IMG/VR virus record: IMGVR_UViG_3300034980_000567
Location: 1 to 24,170 of that record
DNA length: 24,170 nucleotides
DNA from: a virus
Reading direction: 5' to 3' (one strand)
The notes under the pieces are model-generated. The model did not search any database. It was not told where the DNA came from and worked only from the letters and a program-made list of their open reading frames with translations. Within the stretch, counting starts at the first letter, position 1. Every line of letters starts with the position of its first letter. Positions 2,036 to 22,053 of the stretch are shown here, one piece after another. The position numbers and the translations under genes were made by a program.

Positions 2036-2622
2036 GAACTTTTTCTAACTTTTTCTATAATAGAGTCATAAACGCCCATATCGAGTGAAGAACCTTCGTG
2101 AAACATTTCGCACCATTGTAAAAACTTTCTGCAATCTGTGTCCTTCCAATGAAGTTTACGCCTTCCGCGTTGGTGCTTGTATTGCCCCCTAGTGTAAAAC
2201 CCAACTTCTTTTTTCCACTCATACTCCTTGACTCTCCGAATACTCTGAAACCAACCAGCCTCACACGCTTCACTGTTCCTTCGCCAACAGTTATAAAGCG
2301 GTACAGCATCGCTCTTGTTACCGACCCTAACTGAAATCCCTAATCCTTCTAAAGTAGCACCAGCAGCGCGAACAGTGTTGATGTAGTGCTGTTCTTGAAA
2401 ATTATTAGCCAACTCTTGATCGTAAGGGAACTCGTAACTTTCGACCTCGTGCGTTCCCACAACCTCAATCTCAGATTTCCTCACTCTAATACTACCACGG
2501 TCAAATCTATACCCTCCTGTGAATCGCTGTCTTAACTCTCTCTGGGTTATCCCAGCGTAAAAAACAAATTCGTATCGAGTGGTATCCCTTGGTCTGCTTA
2601 CCCATACGTAAGCCGTTTTCAT
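2032..2622 (-). CDS. possible divergent GIY-YIG-like protein
   Basis: This 196-residue protein is unrecognised overall. Its N-terminus has YVWV (5-8) and then FYAGIT (21-26), a spacing like the GIY...YIG core, followed by arginines at about 28-33 (RELRQRF). Further on, NFQEQHYINTVRAAGATLEG resembles the GIY-YIG segment that carries the catalytic glutamate (LExxxI...). The C-terminal half is rich in W, R and K (RGQYKHQRGRRKLHWKD) and could bind nucleic acid. Its ATG overlaps the stop of the upstream nucleotidyltransferase by four bases (ATGA), so translation is probably coupled. If the assignment holds, it is a nuclease or a decayed homing-type enzyme. The match is weak and rests only on motif spacing. 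Confidence 0.4.
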   Translation of the reverse strand: MKTAYVWVSRPRDTTRYEFVFYAGITQRELRQRFTGGYRFDRGSIRVRKSEIEVVGTHEVESYEFPYDQELANNFQEQHYINTVRAAGATLEGLGISVRVGNKSDAVPLYNCWRRNSEACEAGWFQSIRRVKEYEWKKEVGFYTRGQYKHQRGRRKLHWKDTDCRKFLQWCEMFHEGSSLDMGVYDSIIEKVRKSS

Positions 2623-3056
2623 TCCGCAGAACCTTTCAAGCCTGTGAAATCTGAAGAAGAGCGAATCTTATCACCCATACCATCTACTATCTCAATGCCG
2701 AACTTCTTACAAATGAAGGCTTCTGGGATTTCCTCATTTTTGCGATCTCCCCCATTGGCAAAAATGGATGGCTTGGGGGTGGTAAAGTGCGCCAAATAAG
2801 ACAAGCTAGCGCAAACCGTCTTGTCCTTATCTACCGAAAGAAAAACATTATCAACTCCTTGTATTTTGGAGACAATCTTAGCCCTGTCTTCCTCGGGCAT
2901 GAAAGGCTCGCCCTTCTTGAGACGAGCTTGGTGATCGTTGTTTACAATCACTGTTAAAATATCCCCTAGCTTCGAGGCATTCTCTATCATTTCTAAATGC
3001 CCGACGTGGATGGGGTCAAAATAACCGCTAACTACGACTACCTTAAGAGTATTCAT
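2619..3056 (-). CDS. HIGH-motif nucleotidyltransferase (cytidylyltransferase-like)
   Basis: A 145-residue single-domain protein of the cytidylyltransferase-like superfamily, which joins a nucleotide to a phosphorylated sugar, alcohol or cofactor precursor. The nucleotide-binding motif GYFDPIHVGHLEM is at 11-23, with H17 and H20 as the HxGH pair. NGGDRKNEEIPEAF and IRSSSDF near the C-terminus resemble the GGDR and (I/T)xSSS signatures of the family. It resembles the adenylyltransferase half of HldE and glycerol-3-phosphate cytidylyltransferase, but the substrate cannot be read from sequence. A second, different family member lies at 16973-17422 and an HldE-type kinase at 6765-7532. The gene ends in an ATGA overlap with the next gene; no ribosome binding site is obvious before its ATG. 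Confidence 0.8.
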   Translation of the reverse strand: MNTLKVVVVSGYFDPIHVGHLEMIENASKLGDILTVIVNNDHQARLKKGEPFMPEEDRAKIVSKIQGVDNVFLSVDKDKTVCASLSYLAHFTTPKPSIFANGGDRKNEEIPEAFICKKFGIEIVDGMGDKIRSSSDFTGLKGSAE

Positions 3057-6764: not shown

Positions 6765-7532
6765 TTAAATAGTGACGACTCCCCTTTTCTCTACCACCGT
6801 AGAAGCGCACTGGTTAGCGAACTTTAAAGAGTCATGTATAGTGACGCCACCTCTTGTCATCGATATAGCCAGAGCAGCAAAAAAAGTGTCTCCAGCACCT
6901 GACACATCCCTTACTTCCACTACTCGCTCAGGGGCATACATTCTGCCCATATATTTGCACCCCTTATTCCCGAAAGTAGCAACAATTTGATCTGGCCTGT
7001 TATAATGACAGCCACCATTCGTTTTCTGATCGGTAGCATGGGCAAAAGACCAATTGCTCTCAATTTCATATTGATTCACTTTCATCATCGACAAATTCAC
7101 GGGCAGATCATATTTCATTTCCCTCTTAGTGTCCCAAAAGACATTATCGTGATACTGGCACACATTCCTTATGCTGTGATTGTCTAAAAATCCCTTATCG
7201 TAGTCTGAGACTAATATCGCGTCGTACTTTTTGTAATGTATGTTTTTATAATCGAACTTCTCCACAGAAGTATCATCTTCGTCTACTCGGAGTAACATTT
7301 GGTTAGTTTTATCATCGACATACCTAGTTTTAAATATCTCGTTAGAATGAGTAATTAAATCGCACTCAACACCCAAAGCTTCTACGTTGGATTTAACATT
7401 TTTTGCCATACCTCCGTTCTCTGTCGAGTGAGAAGGATTAAAAACAGGCACGGGTGCTTCAGGGCAAATCCTTTCACAAGCACCATATATGAAACGGTCA
7501 GTGCAACTGTCCCCTATAACCAAGAAAGTCAT
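6765..7532 (-). CDS. PfkB-family sugar kinase, HldE (RfaE) kinase-domain type
   Basis: A ribokinase/PfkB-fold kinase of 255 residues. The N-terminus GDSCTDRFIYGACERICPEAPVPVF (7-31) is the signature of the kinase half of HldE, which phosphorylates D-glycero-beta-D-manno-heptose 7-phosphate at C1. GGMAKNV (40-46) and DVSGAGDTFFAAL (209-221) follow, with D215 as the catalytic base; ANQCASTVVEKRG is the usual C-terminal helix. The domain is shorter than the roughly 315 residues of the bacterial one, and the lid region between about 60 and 90 is trimmed. The nucleotidyltransferase half is not fused; a candidate partner lies at 16973-17422. It overlaps the oxygenase-like gene by four bases. Kinase family is sure; heptose as substrate is probable but not proven. 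Confidence 0.85.
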   Translation of the reverse strand: MTFLVIGDSCTDRFIYGACERICPEAPVPVFNPSHSTENGGMAKNVKSNVEALGVECDLITHSNEIFKTRYVDDKTNQMLLRVDEDDTSVEKFDYKNIHYKKYDAILVSDYDKGFLDNHSIRNVCQYHDNVFWDTKREMKYDLPVNLSMMKVNQYEIESNWSFAHATDQKTNGGCHYNRPDQIVATFGNKGCKYMGRMYAPERVVEVRDVSGAGDTFFAALAISMTRGGVTIHDSLKFANQCASTVVEKRGVVTI

Positions 7533-14246: not shown

Positions 14247-15155
14247 TTATCCTGTCACTAATTGTTTCATTTCGTTTTCAGACATTTTTTCGGCTGTTAA
14301 ACTAGACAGTTCTTCCGAAAGAGAGGGCAGTCTTGACTGCTTTGGTTTTTTCTCTTTATGTAAAAATATATATCCCTCTTCGTTTACCTCTGTACGAGAG
14401 ACTTCTCTCTCGGAGATTAAACTCTCATGGATTTTTTCCCCCGGTCTTAAACCAACTACCTCAATGTCATTAGAGATAACTTGAGCTAAGTCTAAAAGGT
14501 TTACCGATTTCATCATGCAAGAAAGAACAAAGCCCGATTTCCCAACCTCCGACAAGCTTACAGCATAATTGATAAGTTCTACTGCGTCTGATTTACTGAA
14601 CATTAAGCGAGTCATCTCGGGGTCTGTGACTTTGAGCTTTTTCCCCTCGTCCTTAAGCTTAGTCCAAAATGGGATAACGGAACCTTGGCTTTTCGCGACA
14701 TTTCCAAAACGACAGCAAGTGAAATTCGCATCAACAAACATTTTCTCCATCATCAATTTGGTATATCCATAAACATTGTCAGGGTTACATGCCTTGTCTG
14801 TGCTGATGCCGACCACTGTGCTTACGCCATTCTCTATTGCAGCTTTTATAATATTAAGACTTCCAATTACATTTACTTCAGTAGCTATCGAAGGCTGCTT
14901 CTCTGCTATATCTACGTGCTTAAGGGCTGCTGCATGAATGATAATGTCAGGACTAACTTTTGACATATGATAAAGGACAGAGCTACTATCCTCTACGCTC
15001 CCTAAAAGGATATCGACATCTGGGAGCCTTCTCTTTAGGGCCACTTGCATACTTTCATTTCTGCAATAACTGTAAAATTTGAAATAACCGTAGTACTTCT
15101 CGATGAACGTAGAGCCCACCGTTCCTGACCCACCTGTTATGAAAACCTTTCTCAT
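14247..15155 (-). CDS. nucleotide-sugar 4,6-dehydratase/epimerase (CapD/PseB-like)
   Basis: A 302-residue short-chain dehydrogenase of the CapD/FlaA1/PseB (Polysacc_synt_2) family, acting on UDP-N-acetylhexosamines. The NAD(P) motif GGSGTVG is at 8-14. IIHAAALKHVDIAE is the family block near 72-85, and STDKACNPDNVYGYTK (118-133) holds the Y129xxxK133 pair. CRFGNVAKSQGSVIPFW and GLRPGEKIHESLIS are further family hallmarks. PseB makes the first intermediate of pseudaminic acid; CapD/FnlA-type relatives make other UDP-sugars, so the product is not fixed. There are no N-terminal membrane helices, as in the short soluble forms. AAGGT precedes the ATG. Its start overlaps the aldehyde dehydrogenase stop (ATGA). 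Confidence 0.87.
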   Translation of the reverse strand: MRKVFITGGSGTVGSTFIEKYYGYFKFYSYCRNESMQVALKRRLPDVDILLGSVEDSSSVLYHMSKVSPDIIIHAAALKHVDIAEKQPSIATEVNVIGSLNIIKAAIENGVSTVVGISTDKACNPDNVYGYTKLMMEKMFVDANFTCCRFGNVAKSQGSVIPFWTKLKDEGKKLKVTDPEMTRLMFSKSDAVELINYAVSLSEVGKSGFVLSCMMKSVNLLDLAQVISNDIEVVGLRPGEKIHESLISEREVSRTEVNEEGYIFLHKEKKPKQSRLPSLSEELSSLTAEKMSENEMKQLVTG

Positions 15156-16722: not shown

Positions 16723-16995
16723 TTAATAATAGGTGTCATGAAGAGTCCGGTCTTCACTAGAAGATTTTTTCATCTTGGCCTTCGCCCTCTTCCCATTTGC
16801 ATTTTTAGGATAAAGGCCCTCCTTCTTTCTCCTCTCAACCTCTTCCCTTTCCCATTTTATATCTTTCTCCCATTTCTTTCTCTCTTCTGGGGATAGATGC
16901 TTCGGGATAGGGCTAAATCTTTCATGGGAATCATCAGACTCCTTACTAGACTTTGCGATTCTTGATTTAGATTTAGGAGATTTTTTCTTCTTCAT
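16723..16995 (-). CDS. small lysine-rich protein
   Basis: A basic, probably disordered protein of about 90 residues rich in Lys, Ser, Arg and Glu (MKKKKSPKSKSRIAKSS... then LSPEERKKWEKDIKWEREEVERRKK). The middle is a strong amphipathic helix. The ATG at 16993-16995 is used; an in-frame ATG at 17014-17016 would add seven residues and lengthen the overlap with the nucleotidyltransferase gene. Neither has a clear ribosome binding site. The stop overlaps an ATG of the aldehyde dehydrogenase frame. Function unknown; nucleic-acid or partner binding is a guess from composition. Confidence 0.55.
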   Translation of the reverse strand: MKKKKSPKSKSRIAKSSKESDDSHERFSPIPKHLSPEERKKWEKDIKWEREEVERRKKEGLYPKNANGKRAKAKMKKSSSEDRTLHDTYY

Positions 16996-17422
16996 GACTT
17001 CTACGTTTAGTTCCATCTATGCAAGCAGTAGAAGAATACCCTTCCACTCTACTAAAAAAAGCAACTTCCTCAGCCCACTCCGAACCGATCACCTCTTTGT
17101 CTCTGTAATCCGAACCAACCACCAAGTAACGAGGCGCGTATTTCTTAACCATCTCTCTCAATTCCTCATCACTCCCAAAACAAACCACCTCATCTATTGT
17201 TTCAATAGATTCAAGGACTGTCGCTCTGTCGTCTAGACTATTGATAGGTCTTTCAGGACCTTTCAACTCCTTGACTCTTTTATCAGTGTCTATCCCCACC
17301 ACTAGGTAATCCCCCAAATCTCTTGCATAACGAAACAACTCAATATGACCGCGATGGATTATATCAAAACACCCATTGCACCATATTACTTTCGGTTTCT
17401 TCTTGGAGCGAACCGTCTTCAC
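16973..17422 (-). CDS. nucleotidyltransferase, HldE (RfaE) C-domain type
   Basis: A 149-residue single-domain nucleotidyltransferase. NGCFDIIHRGHIELFRYAR (16-34) is the core motif with H23 and H26. GDYLVVGIDTDKRVKELKGPERP and the following NSLDDRATVLESI, then DEVVCFGSDEEL and YLVVGSDYRDKEVIGSE, match the adenylyltransferase half of HldE, which turns heptose-1-phosphate into ADP-heptose. The C-terminus keeps RVEGYSSTACID in place of the usual EGxSTTxxI. The start is GTG at 17420-17422, overlapping the upstream stop as GTGA. The matching kinase domain is a separate gene 9.4 kb away (6765-7532). Together they suggest a split HldE. The substrate could also be another sugar or an alcohol phosphate. 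Confidence 0.82.
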   Translation of the reverse strand: MKTVRSKKKPKVIWCNGCFDIIHRGHIELFRYARDLGDYLVVGIDTDKRVKELKGPERPINSLDDRATVLESIETIDEVVCFGSDEELREMVKKYAPRYLVVGSDYRDKEVIGSEWAEEVAFFSRVEGYSSTACIDGTKRRSHEEEKIS

Positions 17423-19723: not shown

Positions 19724-20027
19724 CCTTCTCTATCCTATCCATTAGTTGAAATTCGAAATCTTTCTTACCAAAAAGATAAATTATCTTGCTTTCAGCCTCA
19801 TCATATCTTTCGTCGTGATCCGAGCTTTCTAGTCCCATTAATTTTTCTAGTTCTAGCTCATCAATCGTGTCTAAGTTTTTGAGCATTTCTGTTTCCCACC
19901 AGCCGATGGAAATGACCGCCATGTTATAGGCTTGCTCAGTCCTAAACCTTCTTAAGGCTCGAACACAAGCTCTCCCTAAAAGTCCCTCTAGGCTTCTATT
20001 AGGGCCATCCTTACCGTTATTACTCAT
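19704..20027 (-). CDS. hypothetical protein
   Basis: A 107-residue protein starting at the ATG at 20025-20027 (MSNNGKDGPNRSLE). GGGAG stands 4 to 5 bases upstream and decides this start over a longer frame from a TTG at 20084. LLGRACVRALRRFRTEQAYNMAVISIGWW is a helical stretch; the rest is acidic with charged helices (DELELEKLMGLESSDHDERYDEAESKI). No family recognised. It overlaps the gene upstream by eight bases and the one downstream by 20. Confidence 0.6.
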   Translation of the reverse strand: MSNNGKDGPNRSLEGLLGRACVRALRRFRTEQAYNMAVISIGWWETEMLKNLDTIDELELEKLMGLESSDHDERYDEAESKIIYLFGKKDFEFQLMDRIEKDAQKYL

Positions 20028-20175
20028 CGATCTCCCTGACGATTTCGCAATGCACAGCCTCGCATTTGATAAAACCCTCGTCAAATAAATACTTAACGAG
20101 AACCTCGGCCTCAGGAAAGGTCATTGTCTCTAATGGGTCCTTTATTACAACCCTTCGGGAAGTATTAGAAATCAT
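20020..20175 (-). CDS. small hypothetical protein, 51 residues
   Basis: The ATG at 20173-20175 (MISNTSRRVVIKDPLETM) has a near-ideal AAGGAG 8 bases upstream, so it is preferred over an in-frame ATG at 20212-20214. The product has an N-terminal beta unit and a helix FPEAEVLVKYLFDEGF. No family recognised. Its start codon is separated by one base from the divergent ATG of the plus-strand signal peptidase gene. It is the first gene of the long minus-strand block below. Confidence 0.6.
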   Translation of the reverse strand: MISNTSRRVVIKDPLETMTFPEAEVLVKYLFDEGFIKCEAVHCEIVREIDE

Positions 20176-20176
20176 T

Positions 20177-20695
20177 ATGTCCACTCCTTGCAATGTGATA
20201 TGCTTCACTATCATTAATTACACTAACATCGACAAGGATAAGGGAAGAAAGCTACTTAACTATCTCTGGAAGATAGCCTTCGTTTTGCTGTTTGTTTTCT
20301 TAATCTTCGGGTCCAAATACAAAATCCTATATAATAGTGGAGATAGCATGACGCCTACCATCGTTGATAGACAGATGATAGTCATGGAAAGATATTGGTC
20401 TGGGTGCTATCCAGACAGGATGGACATCGTTGTCATCAAATCTTCTGAAGATGGAGAGACTCTAAACAAGAGAATCCTTGGTATGCCTAATGAAATATTT
20501 GAGGCTAAGGAAGGAATAGTATACATCGACGGCAAAAGGATGAACGACCCTTATGTCACAACAACTAGAGAATTCTCAATAGAACCAATAAAAATCCCTA
20601 AAGACTGCTATTTTGTGATCGGGGATAATAGGGGAAATTCTCTCTACGGAATATTTCACCGTAGAGAGATTTGGGGTATAGTTATTTACTTTTGA
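20177..20695 (+). CDS. lepB: signal peptidase I
   Basis: The only plus-strand protein gene. The 172-residue product (ATG at 20177-20179) has a cytoplasmic N-terminus, one membrane helix at about 31-45 (WKIAFVLLFVFLIFG) and an outer catalytic domain. SGDSMTPT (54-61) holds the nucleophile S57; LNKRILGMPNE (96-106) holds the general base K98; VIGDNRGNS (147-155) is box E. This Ser-Lys dyad type is LepB (S26), which removes signal peptides from exported proteins. All catalytic boxes are intact, and the length is near the short bacterial forms. A longer frame from 20066 would overlap minus-strand genes and is not supported. Phage-encoded signal peptidases are rare. Its 3' end contains an 11-bp hairpin. 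Confidence 0.9.
   Translation: MSTPCNVICFTIINYTNIDKDKGRKLLNYLWKIAFVLLFVFLIFGSKYKILYNSGDSMTPTIVDRQMIVMERYWSGCYPDRMDIVVIKSSEDGETLNKRILGMPNEIFEAKEGIVYIDGKRMNDPYVTTTREFSIEPIKIPKDCYFVIGDNRGNSLYGIFHRREIWGIVIYF
20639..20669. terminator. perfect 11-bp inverted repeat inside the signal peptidase 3' end
   Basis: TCTCTCTACGG (20639-20649) and CCGTAGAGAGA (20659-20669) are exact inverted copies around a 9-base loop. It overlaps codons for the last residues of the signal peptidase and stands 13 bases past the stop of the convergent small membrane protein gene on the minus strand. It may terminate that minus-strand transcript or act on the peptidase message; the following T run is short on both strands. 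Confidence 0.5.
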
Positions 20696-20831
20696 CCGCC
20701 TTTTTCCTGCGGACAGGTTTTTTGGCTGCGACAAATCTTTTGGTTACTATCACTTCGTGAAGTATCCGGTTTCCTAGCCATAGACCATAGCCTATCGCTG
20801 ACATCATAAGGACAATCATTCCATATTCCAT
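20682..20831 (-). CDS. small single-pass membrane protein
   Basis: A 49-residue protein with an N-terminal membrane helix (MEYGMIVLMMSAIGYGLWLG) and a strongly basic tail (RFVAAKKPVRRKKAVKSK), so the C-terminus should be cytoplasmic. The ATG at 20829-20831 is chosen over one at 20862-20864 because AAGGGG precedes it by about 7 bases; that sequence lies in a hairpin (20839-20857). A different frame (20686-20868) is discarded. It converges on the signal peptidase gene with a 14-base overlap. Holin- or regulator-like roles are possible, but nothing specific is seen. Confidence 0.55.
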   Translation of the reverse strand: MEYGMIVLMMSAIGYGLWLGNRILHEVIVTKRFVAAKKPVRRKKAVKSK

Positions 20832-20838
20832 AACAAAT

Positions 20839-20857
20839 CCCCTTGTACTCCAAGGGG
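20839..20857 (-). promoter_or_regulatory. hairpin covering the ribosome binding site of the small membrane protein
   Basis: On the minus strand CCCCTTG (20851-20857) pairs with CAAGGGG (20839-20845) around a 5-base loop. The 3' arm is the Shine-Dalgarno sequence of the gene at 20682-20831, so folding should block translation until the stem opens. Confidence 0.55.
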
Positions 20858-20890
20858 GCAACATACATTACACAGGAAAACTAGGGTGTG

Positions 20891-20928
20891 AAAAAAAACG
20901 TAGCGAAGCCGAAAAGCCTCACTACGTT
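20891..20928 (-). terminator. rho-independent terminator
   Basis: On the minus strand AACGTAGTGAGGC (20916-20928) pairs with GCTTCGCTACGTT (20897-20909), a 13-bp stem with two G-U pairs and a 6-base loop, followed by a run of eight T. It stands 25 bases past the stop of the lipoprotein gene and should end the protease-lipoprotein transcript. Confidence 0.85.
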
Positions 20929-20953
20929 TATACGCAGGGTTGGTATGTGCCCC

Positions 20954-21103
20954 TCAAGAACTGCAAGAGCAGTCGCAGCCCTCTACGGAGCAAGAGCCAG
21001 AATCACAACATCCTGAATCACAAGCGCATTTTGGGCATTTTGAGTCCCCCCAATTACAGCCCACTAGAGCAACTACAGAGAATAAAAGAATAATTTTTTT
21101 CAT
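20954..21103 (-). CDS. small cysteine-rich lipoprotein
   Basis: An ATG at 21101-21103, preceded by GAGGT (about 5 bases), opens a 49-codon frame that ends at 20954. The N-terminus MKKIILLFSVVALVGC is a lipoprotein signal with the lipobox LVGC (13-16), so C16 should be lipidated and processed by signal peptidase II. The mature part of 34 residues has ten cysteines (C16, 23, 26, 28, 32, 33, 38, 43, 45, 47) in CxxC and CC patterns, which suggests metal binding or disulfides. It begins 2 bases after the protease stop and is followed by a strong terminator. No family recognised. Confidence 0.75.
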   Translation of the reverse strand: MKKIILLFSVVALVGCNWGDSKCPKCACDSGCCDSGSCSVEGCDCSCSS

Positions 21104-21105
21104 AT

Positions 21106-22053
21106 CTACCTCTTCTGAATGATGGTTTTAGTCGTCGGTTTATTTAAATCAATTACCCGAAGCTGGAATGGGAAAAGCTTTTTAGCTGCTTCCTTTTTCT
21201 CCTCATCCTTAGCACTGTCCTCTTCTTTAGGAGTGCTTTCGATAGGCATTTTCTTTAGTGCTTCTTCATTAGGCATTTCCTCTTTTCCGTCTAAGGCCCA
21301 CATAATCTTATGCCGTTTGCAATAATCATGGAGACGGCGTACAGGCACAATTAAATTGAACCCTTCTCCTGCTCCCCTAACCAACATTCCTACATATCTT
21401 GCATCAGATTTCAGATACACACCACCGCCAGAGCTTCCGGGAAAAGCTGTACAAGTCGTTTGGTCGAACACATGCTTATTAAGGTCTTTAATAATTCTAC
21501 CGTGTTGTGAGTAAATTCCATCTGTCATACTATTTGCACCTAGTTGGCCTAGCAGCGAACCGACATGCAGAAGGTCCGTACCCAAGGCGGGAATTTTTTT
21601 ATCAAGATAAAATGTTACGCTATCGGTAACGAAATTAAGTTTACGAATACGGAGTAGTGCAAGATCATGTCCATCATCTGCATCACTGTATTTCAGGACC
21701 TCCGCATCCATTTGAAGACGACCGACAGTTCTTCCATTCTGTCTAATCTCCTTAATAATTGTTGGGTCTTTGAATTCCACCAAAGTCCTTGGTGCGCCAT
21801 TAATTAAAATTTTCCTTTCGGAACGAAGATTATCTATGACATGTCCAGCAGTCCAAACTAGGTTTACGGAGTTCCCGTCTTTATCTTTTCGGGTAAAGAC
21901 CACACCGCTCCCTTCTCCTGCATTGTAACCGCTCTCTGCTCTAATAGTAACAGATACGTTTTGTAAGTGCTCGGCAGTAGAAGTCTTTTTCTCTGCGGAA
22001 GTTCCGGTAAAGCTAAGCATTACCGCCATTGTAAAAGCGATGAGTGTCTTCAT
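21106..22053 (-). CDS. exported trypsin-like serine protease
   Basis: A 315-residue secreted chymotrypsin-fold protease. A signal peptide is evident: MKTLIAFTMAVMLSFTGTSA with predicted cleavage after A20. The catalytic triad is H71 in TAGHV, D130 in GHDLALLRI and S208 in FPGSSGG (206-210). DKDGNSVNLVWTAGHVI and DGIYSQHGRI complete the family pattern. A charged, low-complexity C-terminal stretch (about 258-295: EEMPNEEALKKMPIES...) and a short beta tail (FQLRVIDLNKPT) follow; there is no PDZ domain, unlike DegP/HtrA. It lies in one transcript with the cysteine-rich lipoprotein and beside the signal peptidase gene. TATAGT stands a few bases upstream of the ATG, with no strong ribosome binding site. 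The target is unknown. Confidence 0.85.
   Translation of the reverse strand: MKTLIAFTMAVMLSFTGTSAEKKTSTAEHLQNVSVTIRAESGYNAGEGSGVVFTRKDKDGNSVNLVWTAGHVIDNLRSERKILINGAPRTLVEFKDPTIIKEIRQNGRTVGRLQMDAEVLKYSDADDGHDLALLRIRKLNFVTDSVTFYLDKKIPALGTDLLHVGSLLGQLGANSMTDGIYSQHGRIIKDLNKHVFDQTTCTAFPGSSGGGVYLKSDARYVGMLVRGAGEGFNLIVPVRRLHDYCKRHKIMWALDGKEEMPNEEALKKMPIESTPKEEDSAKDEEKKEAAKKLFPFQLRVIDLNKPTTKTIIQKR

Follow-up and report, generated by a model that had tools for sequence, protein, structure and literature searches.

An uncultivated marine phage lineage encodes its own type I signal peptidase (SPase), a variant of the bacterial enzyme that keeps the Ser-Lys dyad; the same segment of box E is missing from all 55 distinct copies compared. 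The copy described here comes from a 24,170-base IMG/VR virus record (IMGVR_UViG_3300034980_000567, hereafter the window), and 62 of the lineage's 117 distinct records contain the gene at a score over the Pfam cut-off (36 of 50, 5 of 34 and 21 of 37 by record set). The reading that we favour, holding it in about even balance with doubt, is that the phage SPase would process the phage's own Sec-exported proteins, namely a lytic hydrolase and a protease. The features concerned are collected in Table 1.

Table 1. Features in and around the SPase and protease genes of the window.
Feature	Coordinates	Strand	Basis
Type I signal peptidase (SPase), 172 aa from first ATG, start uncertain	20177..20695	+	family, fold, S57/K98 dyad, one N-terminal TM helix, box E GDNRGNS without xDSR
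Exported trypsin-like serine protease, 315 aa, triad H71/D130/S208	21106..22053	-	Trypsin_2 match, alignment
Predicted cleavable signal peptide of the protease, MKTLIAFTMAVMLSFTGTSA, then cleavage before EKK	21994..22053	-	sequence; n/h/c architecture kept in all complete relatives
Cys-rich mini-lipoprotein, 49 aa, lipobox LVGC, ten Cys	20954..21103	-	two-gene operon with protease, 2-nt gap
Intrinsic terminator closing the protease-lipoprotein operon, 15-pair stem and T run	20896..20929	-	covarying stem
Small membrane protein, likely start 20831 (MEYGMIVLMMSAIGYGLWLGNRI...)	20682..20864	-	dN/dS 0.24-0.28
Conserved small protein, 51 aa, not membrane, head-to-head with SPase	20020..20175	-	AAGGAG ribosome site overlaps SPase start region

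The family assignment of the SPase is firm. PF10502 matches with E=4e-22 (79.2 bits, cut-off 22.9) and NCBIfam TIGR02227 with 80.5 bits (cut-off 47); the catalytic Ser57 lies within GDSM and Lys98 within NKR, and Ser57, Met58, Lys98 and Arg99 are invariant across 27 phage homologues with 23-79% identity to the window copy. The predicted model (mean pLDDT 87.8) has a single N-terminal helix at residues 20-47, which would anchor the protein in the membrane, and its best structural match is S. aureus SpsB (TM 0.65), with EF3073 and LepB also among the top PDB matches. Residues 1-19 are modelled at low confidence, and codon 18 is ATG in close relatives and ATC in the window; the start codon is uncertain. 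The gene itself is real and kept by purifying selection, with dN/dS of 0.08-0.12 against two close relatives. An 11-pair perfect stem (TCTCTCTACGG...CCGTAGAGAGA, window 20639-20669, z -3.4) lies within the box E coding region.

A first-pass annotation of the window had described a complete LepB-type SPase with S57, K98 and box E. Family, fold and dyad bear this out, but box E is shortened. It reads GDNRGNSLYG in the window and GDNRxxSWYG or close variants in other phage copies, and the xDSR that follows GDNRxxS in five of five bacterial SPases from unrelated genomes (GDNRxxSxDSR) occurs in none of the 55 phage copies. In a quick tree that took in only these five bacterial SPases, all 55 phage copies lie on one side of a branch with 97% SH-aLRT. 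Because xDSR is absent from every phage copy, we regard the SPase as a separate phage branch and "complete" as too strong a word; since it departs from the full box E, we class it as a variant of type I signal peptidase (S26A). In the E. coli enzyme, Ser278 and Ala279 bond the ligand (PMC12984324) and Arg282 lines S3'/S4' (PMC2259416), contacts that would place the residues missing from the phage SPase on the mature-protein (primed) side. By this analogy the deletion should alter the primed side, and with a box E lacking the DSR segment the activity or specificity of the enzyme may differ.

That lineage-wide loss invites the reading that the protein has an altered specificity or serves some purpose other than processing; it might act on a membrane protein of the host or be a helper like streptococcal SipA, in which an SPase fold serves without detectable peptidase activity (PMC4049620). 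However, SipA has atypical motifs at both catalytic sites, whereas Ser and Lys are invariant in the phage SPase, and the same genomes encode phage proteins that bear signal peptides; we consider a changed role improbable.

Phages were said in the first-pass annotation to carry signal peptidases rarely. This fits the annotated phage collection, in which no match covered >80% of the SPase query, but it is false inside this lineage. Literature searches turned up no description, under that name, of a signal peptidase encoded by a phage. Matches from a "phages" collection were set aside: they are unannotated and either resemble bacterial sequence under Listeria or Enterococcus phage names or are gut contigs. 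One might suppose that the SPase is host-derived cargo with no phage-specific role, as it is often a lone strand-reversed gene amid variable small genes and glycosyltransferases. Its purifying selection, its presence in at least 62 records and its separate phage branch make this very improbable.

Nearly all window genes lie on the minus strand, and the SPase, on the plus strand, opposes every other gene of the set in Table 1. Its neighbours in the window include an rIIA-like protein, a sigma-70 factor, a saccharopine dehydrogenase, an aldehyde dehydrogenase, a phosphomannomutase-like protein, an HNH endonuclease, a dUTPase and one tRNA (tRNA-Arg). Genes for sugar or envelope-polysaccharide functions (two cytidylyltransferases, a PfkB kinase and a Polysacc_synt_2 dehydratase) lie at 2619-3056, 6765-7532, 14247-15155 and 16973-17422. 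The terminase of a long relative has a best identity to isolated phages of about 24-27%, so no close isolated relative of the lineage was found. A search for the T4-type major capsid (PF07068) gave no match and was uninformative, the controls being equally blank. In an 89-kb close relative (G001), one open frame of 4,468 aa, probably a tail or fibre protein, occupies 48724-62130 of the minus strand, adjoined by other large frames.

The protease matches Trypsin_2 (PF13365) with E=2e-11 (45.3 bits, cut-off 27.6), and its three triad columns are all invariant in a 23-row alignment. All complete copies retain a predicted signal peptide though its letters vary, signal peptides having been judged by inspection and a crude script rather than by a trained predictor. 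The description of an exported trypsin-like protease with an intact triad thus holds, and the signal peptide implies that the protease acts outside the cytoplasm. Granzyme, DegQ and V8 match its low-confidence model (mean pLDDT 63.6) at E ~1e-4, indicating fold class at most. The protease core is far more conserved than the other genes of these phages, with a mean column identity of 64% versus about 34% for the SPase, although its copies were retrieved by exact peptide patterns, which favours conserved ones; the SPase alignment was too divergent to serve such a pattern scan. The protease family is essentially viral: 448 viral stretches carry it, versus a total of six matches when about 85,000 species genomes were searched; five of these matches lie in MAG contigs, which may themselves be phage. 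No match was found among isolated phages. Distant copies (47-52%) occur in MAG contigs labelled Woesebacteria, Peregrinibacteria, Parcubacteria and SAR202 (L137-L141), possibly misbinned phage contigs.

The Cys-rich lipoprotein, with signal peptide and lipobox Cys MKKIILLFSVVALVGC, was placed by the first-pass annotation in the protease transcript, and we agree, given the 2-nt gap between the genes and the strong terminator that follows; the terminator stem is preserved by paired changes in two relatives (L002 and L003). The lipobox is retained in most aligned relatives and replaced in two (L028, L071). The lipoprotein directly follows the protease, mostly at -8 to +6 nt, in 31 of 95 distinct protease sequences (about a third), a set that may include alternative ORF lengths. 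The small membrane protein had been counted as a further member of the set. Its coding is supported, in close relatives only, but it stands outside the protease transcript, past the terminator, and shares 14 nt with the 3' end of the SPase gene; family searches with it gave no match. An overlapping frame at 20686-20868 was rejected as a gene (dN/dS 1.1-1.8, with a stop in L003). The small protein family that lies head-to-head with the SPase (window 20020-20214) was found in 68 loci.

The first-pass annotation took the SPase to be paired with exported proteins; read as a dedicated pair, the peptidase would exist for maturing the secreted protease beside it. Thirty-six of 50 protease-bearing records have the SPase over the cut-off, and in 22 of these 36 the two genes lie within 3.5 kb of each other. 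This is closer than random placement gives: among 31 deduplicated records, 17 fall within 3.5 kb versus 4.4 expected (0 of 20,000 random placements; shared ancestry not removed). The SPase tree requires several changes of protease-adjacency state, with adjacency recurring in several of its parts, and in a crude census the protease is the sole convincing exported protein of the window and of G001.

Against such a pair, the adjacent genes never share a strand (16 of the 22 are tail-to-tail and six head-to-head), and the set is no fixed unit, the SPase lying 11-18 kb upstream on the same strand in 11 of the 36 records and still farther away in three. The genes are thus at least 11 kb apart in 14 records, an outcome that the first-pass annotation had itself named as counting against its reading. 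The strong conservation of the protease also contrasts with the divergence of the SPase. Independent sampling by ribonucleotide reductase gave 66 tested records, of which 21 have both genes (one a truncated weak match), 15 the protease only, 21 the SPase only and nine neither; there is no positive association (p=0.44, odds ratio 0.6), and seven protease-bearing records in this sample show no SPase. Among long records, the 158-kb G081 and 142-kb G085 have the SPase and no Trypsin_2 match, and in the 170-kb G113 the protease is present and no SPase was found. The contigs are fragments, so gene absences are soft; the lack of positive association together with the long records holding one gene only nevertheless weakens the pairing, which we think has a small chance of being right.

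If the protease is not the dedicated substrate, other exported phage proteins should be considered. When seven long records were screened crudely for exported proteins, a cell-wall hydrolase (PF07486) emerged. It scores over the cut-off in 14 of 47 records, the majority of them long, and by inspection each of the 14 begins with what looks like a signal peptide. Both G081, where it lies about 2.3 kb from the SPase, and G085 carry it, and no protease was detected in either; on its sequence it is a candidate substrate of SPase I even where the protease is missing. Neither the window nor G001, both fragments, yielded it, and some long SPase-bearing records (G030, 109 kb; G050, 100 kb) show none. 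Several SPase-negative records (G049, G051, G026, G029, G038) encode the hydrolase, and the host signal peptidase may therefore be enough to process it. The SPase thus shows no strict co-occurrence with any single candidate substrate. At 103994-104503 of G081, 18 nt from the SPase match and convergent with it, lies a 169-aa protein with the twin-arginine motif MNRRDFIK (PF10518, E 8e-4, below cut-off).

Elsewhere in the lineage the SPase keeps other company. At 13 distinct loci it closes an operon of overlapping genes, X-Y-(Z)-SPase, most of whose overlaps measure 4 nt; here X has an N-terminal TM segment, a coiled coil and a Pro-rich tail, Y is tail-anchored and Z, often present, is an MSCFFP membrane protein. 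The SPase could accordingly belong functionally to a module of small membrane proteins that acts on the envelope or in lysis, and by cleaving X, Y or Z it would set the time of lysis or the disruption of the envelope. In at least five other records (G020, G006, G030, G013, G026) X-Y is followed, in the place of the SPase, by a C39-like lipoprotein, a label that comes from a motif and one sub-threshold Pfam match (E 0.0037). X is i-spanin-like in layout only, with a weak Rz-like match (phrog_739, E 0.015) that is insignificant, and the Cys-rich lipoprotein has another (phrog_16495, E 0.024). But Y was detected in only seven of 31 long records, and the operon is found neither in the window nor beside protease-adjacent SPases. 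The Z26-type proteins and the mini-lipoproteins, moreover, bear sites resembling a lipobox, the type of site cut by signal peptidase II. On balance such a module seems unlikely, if worth keeping in mind.

A related cluster lies about 5 kb from the terminase gene of the 178-kb G020 (L358, 150646-152316): a TM-coiled-coil protein, a tail-anchored protein, a C39-like lipoprotein and two mini-lipoproteins. It includes a homologue of the window's Cys-rich lipoprotein, which is placed away from the protease there. At several loci the same-strand neighbours of the SPase were rejected as partners by eye, being unrelated cargo (glycosyltransferase-like, sulfotransferase-like).

Of the wider proposal in the first-pass annotation, an export set that remodels the periplasm or envelope, we retain the export and envelope genes, their purifying selection and their linkage above chance, but not a dedicated SPase-protease pair. 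Receptor cleavage and superinfection exclusion find no support in this analysis. Lysis gains indirect support from the lineage, through the membrane-protein operon and the hydrolase with its signal peptide, but none from the window.

We return to processing of the phage's own exports as the preferred reading. On this reading the plus-strand gene encodes a Ser-Lys type I signal peptidase that belongs to a phage-specific branch and is anchored in the membrane, and during infection this enzyme would supplement or partly replace that of the host. It would cut signal peptides off phage Sec-exported precursors, at least the protease in the window and the PF07486 hydrolase in long relatives, and the protease and Cys-rich lipoprotein form a separate operon that would use the same export route. 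Catalytic activity, substrates and a selection for extra processing capacity are what we infer from the computed family, fold, dyad, purifying selection, lineage-wide presence and signal peptides on candidate substrates.

The usual view is that phages exporting their lytic enzymes depend on the signal peptidase of the host. A phage SPase that is present lineage-wide and whose copies share one box E deletion would put signal-peptide removal under phage control, and offers a natural variant for probing the job of the DSR segment. A bolder and fairly unlikely extension is an autonomous export-maturation arm, in which the deletion has remodelled the primed-side pocket so that the SPase prefers phage lytic and proteolytic precursors, and the phage, not the host, sets the moment at which the exported hydrolase and protease are released within the envelope. 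A second family of note is the secreted protease, essentially viral and very highly conserved, together with its coupled Cys-rich lipoprotein.

Among known systems, the available passages on Lys44, the endolysin of Oenococcus phage fOg44, describe a Sec-exported and matured enzyme and mention no phage-encoded peptidase (PMC6116005); as a phage lytic enzyme with a cleavable signal peptide it resembles the PF07486 hydrolase of the long relatives, for which such a peptide is predicted. Kayvirus Tgl is described as a secreted phage lytic enzyme (PMC7150955). The phage protease shares with Trypsin_2 and HtrA-Deg-like proteases (PF13365) the triad, chymotrypsin-like fold matches (from a low-confidence model) and predicted export; it differs in that no PDZ domain was detected and in its almost exclusively viral distribution. 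The viral S26 proteins of Bacillus phage BCD7 (J9PV64) and Myoviridae ctZgq1 (A0A8S5LXF4) and the Pandoravirus signal peptidase I share the predicted SPase-like fold (E 1e-5 to 5e-3), at an identity to the phage SPase of only 14-18%, the comparison being by predicted fold. With bacterial type I SPases (LepB, SpsB, SipS; PF10502, TIGR02227, MEROPS S26A) the phage SPase has in common the Ser-Lys dyad, GxSM, KR, GDNRxxS, the N-terminal TM helix and the fold, while it is set apart by a box E without xDSR, a length of mostly 150-200 aa and a phage-only group in the tree.
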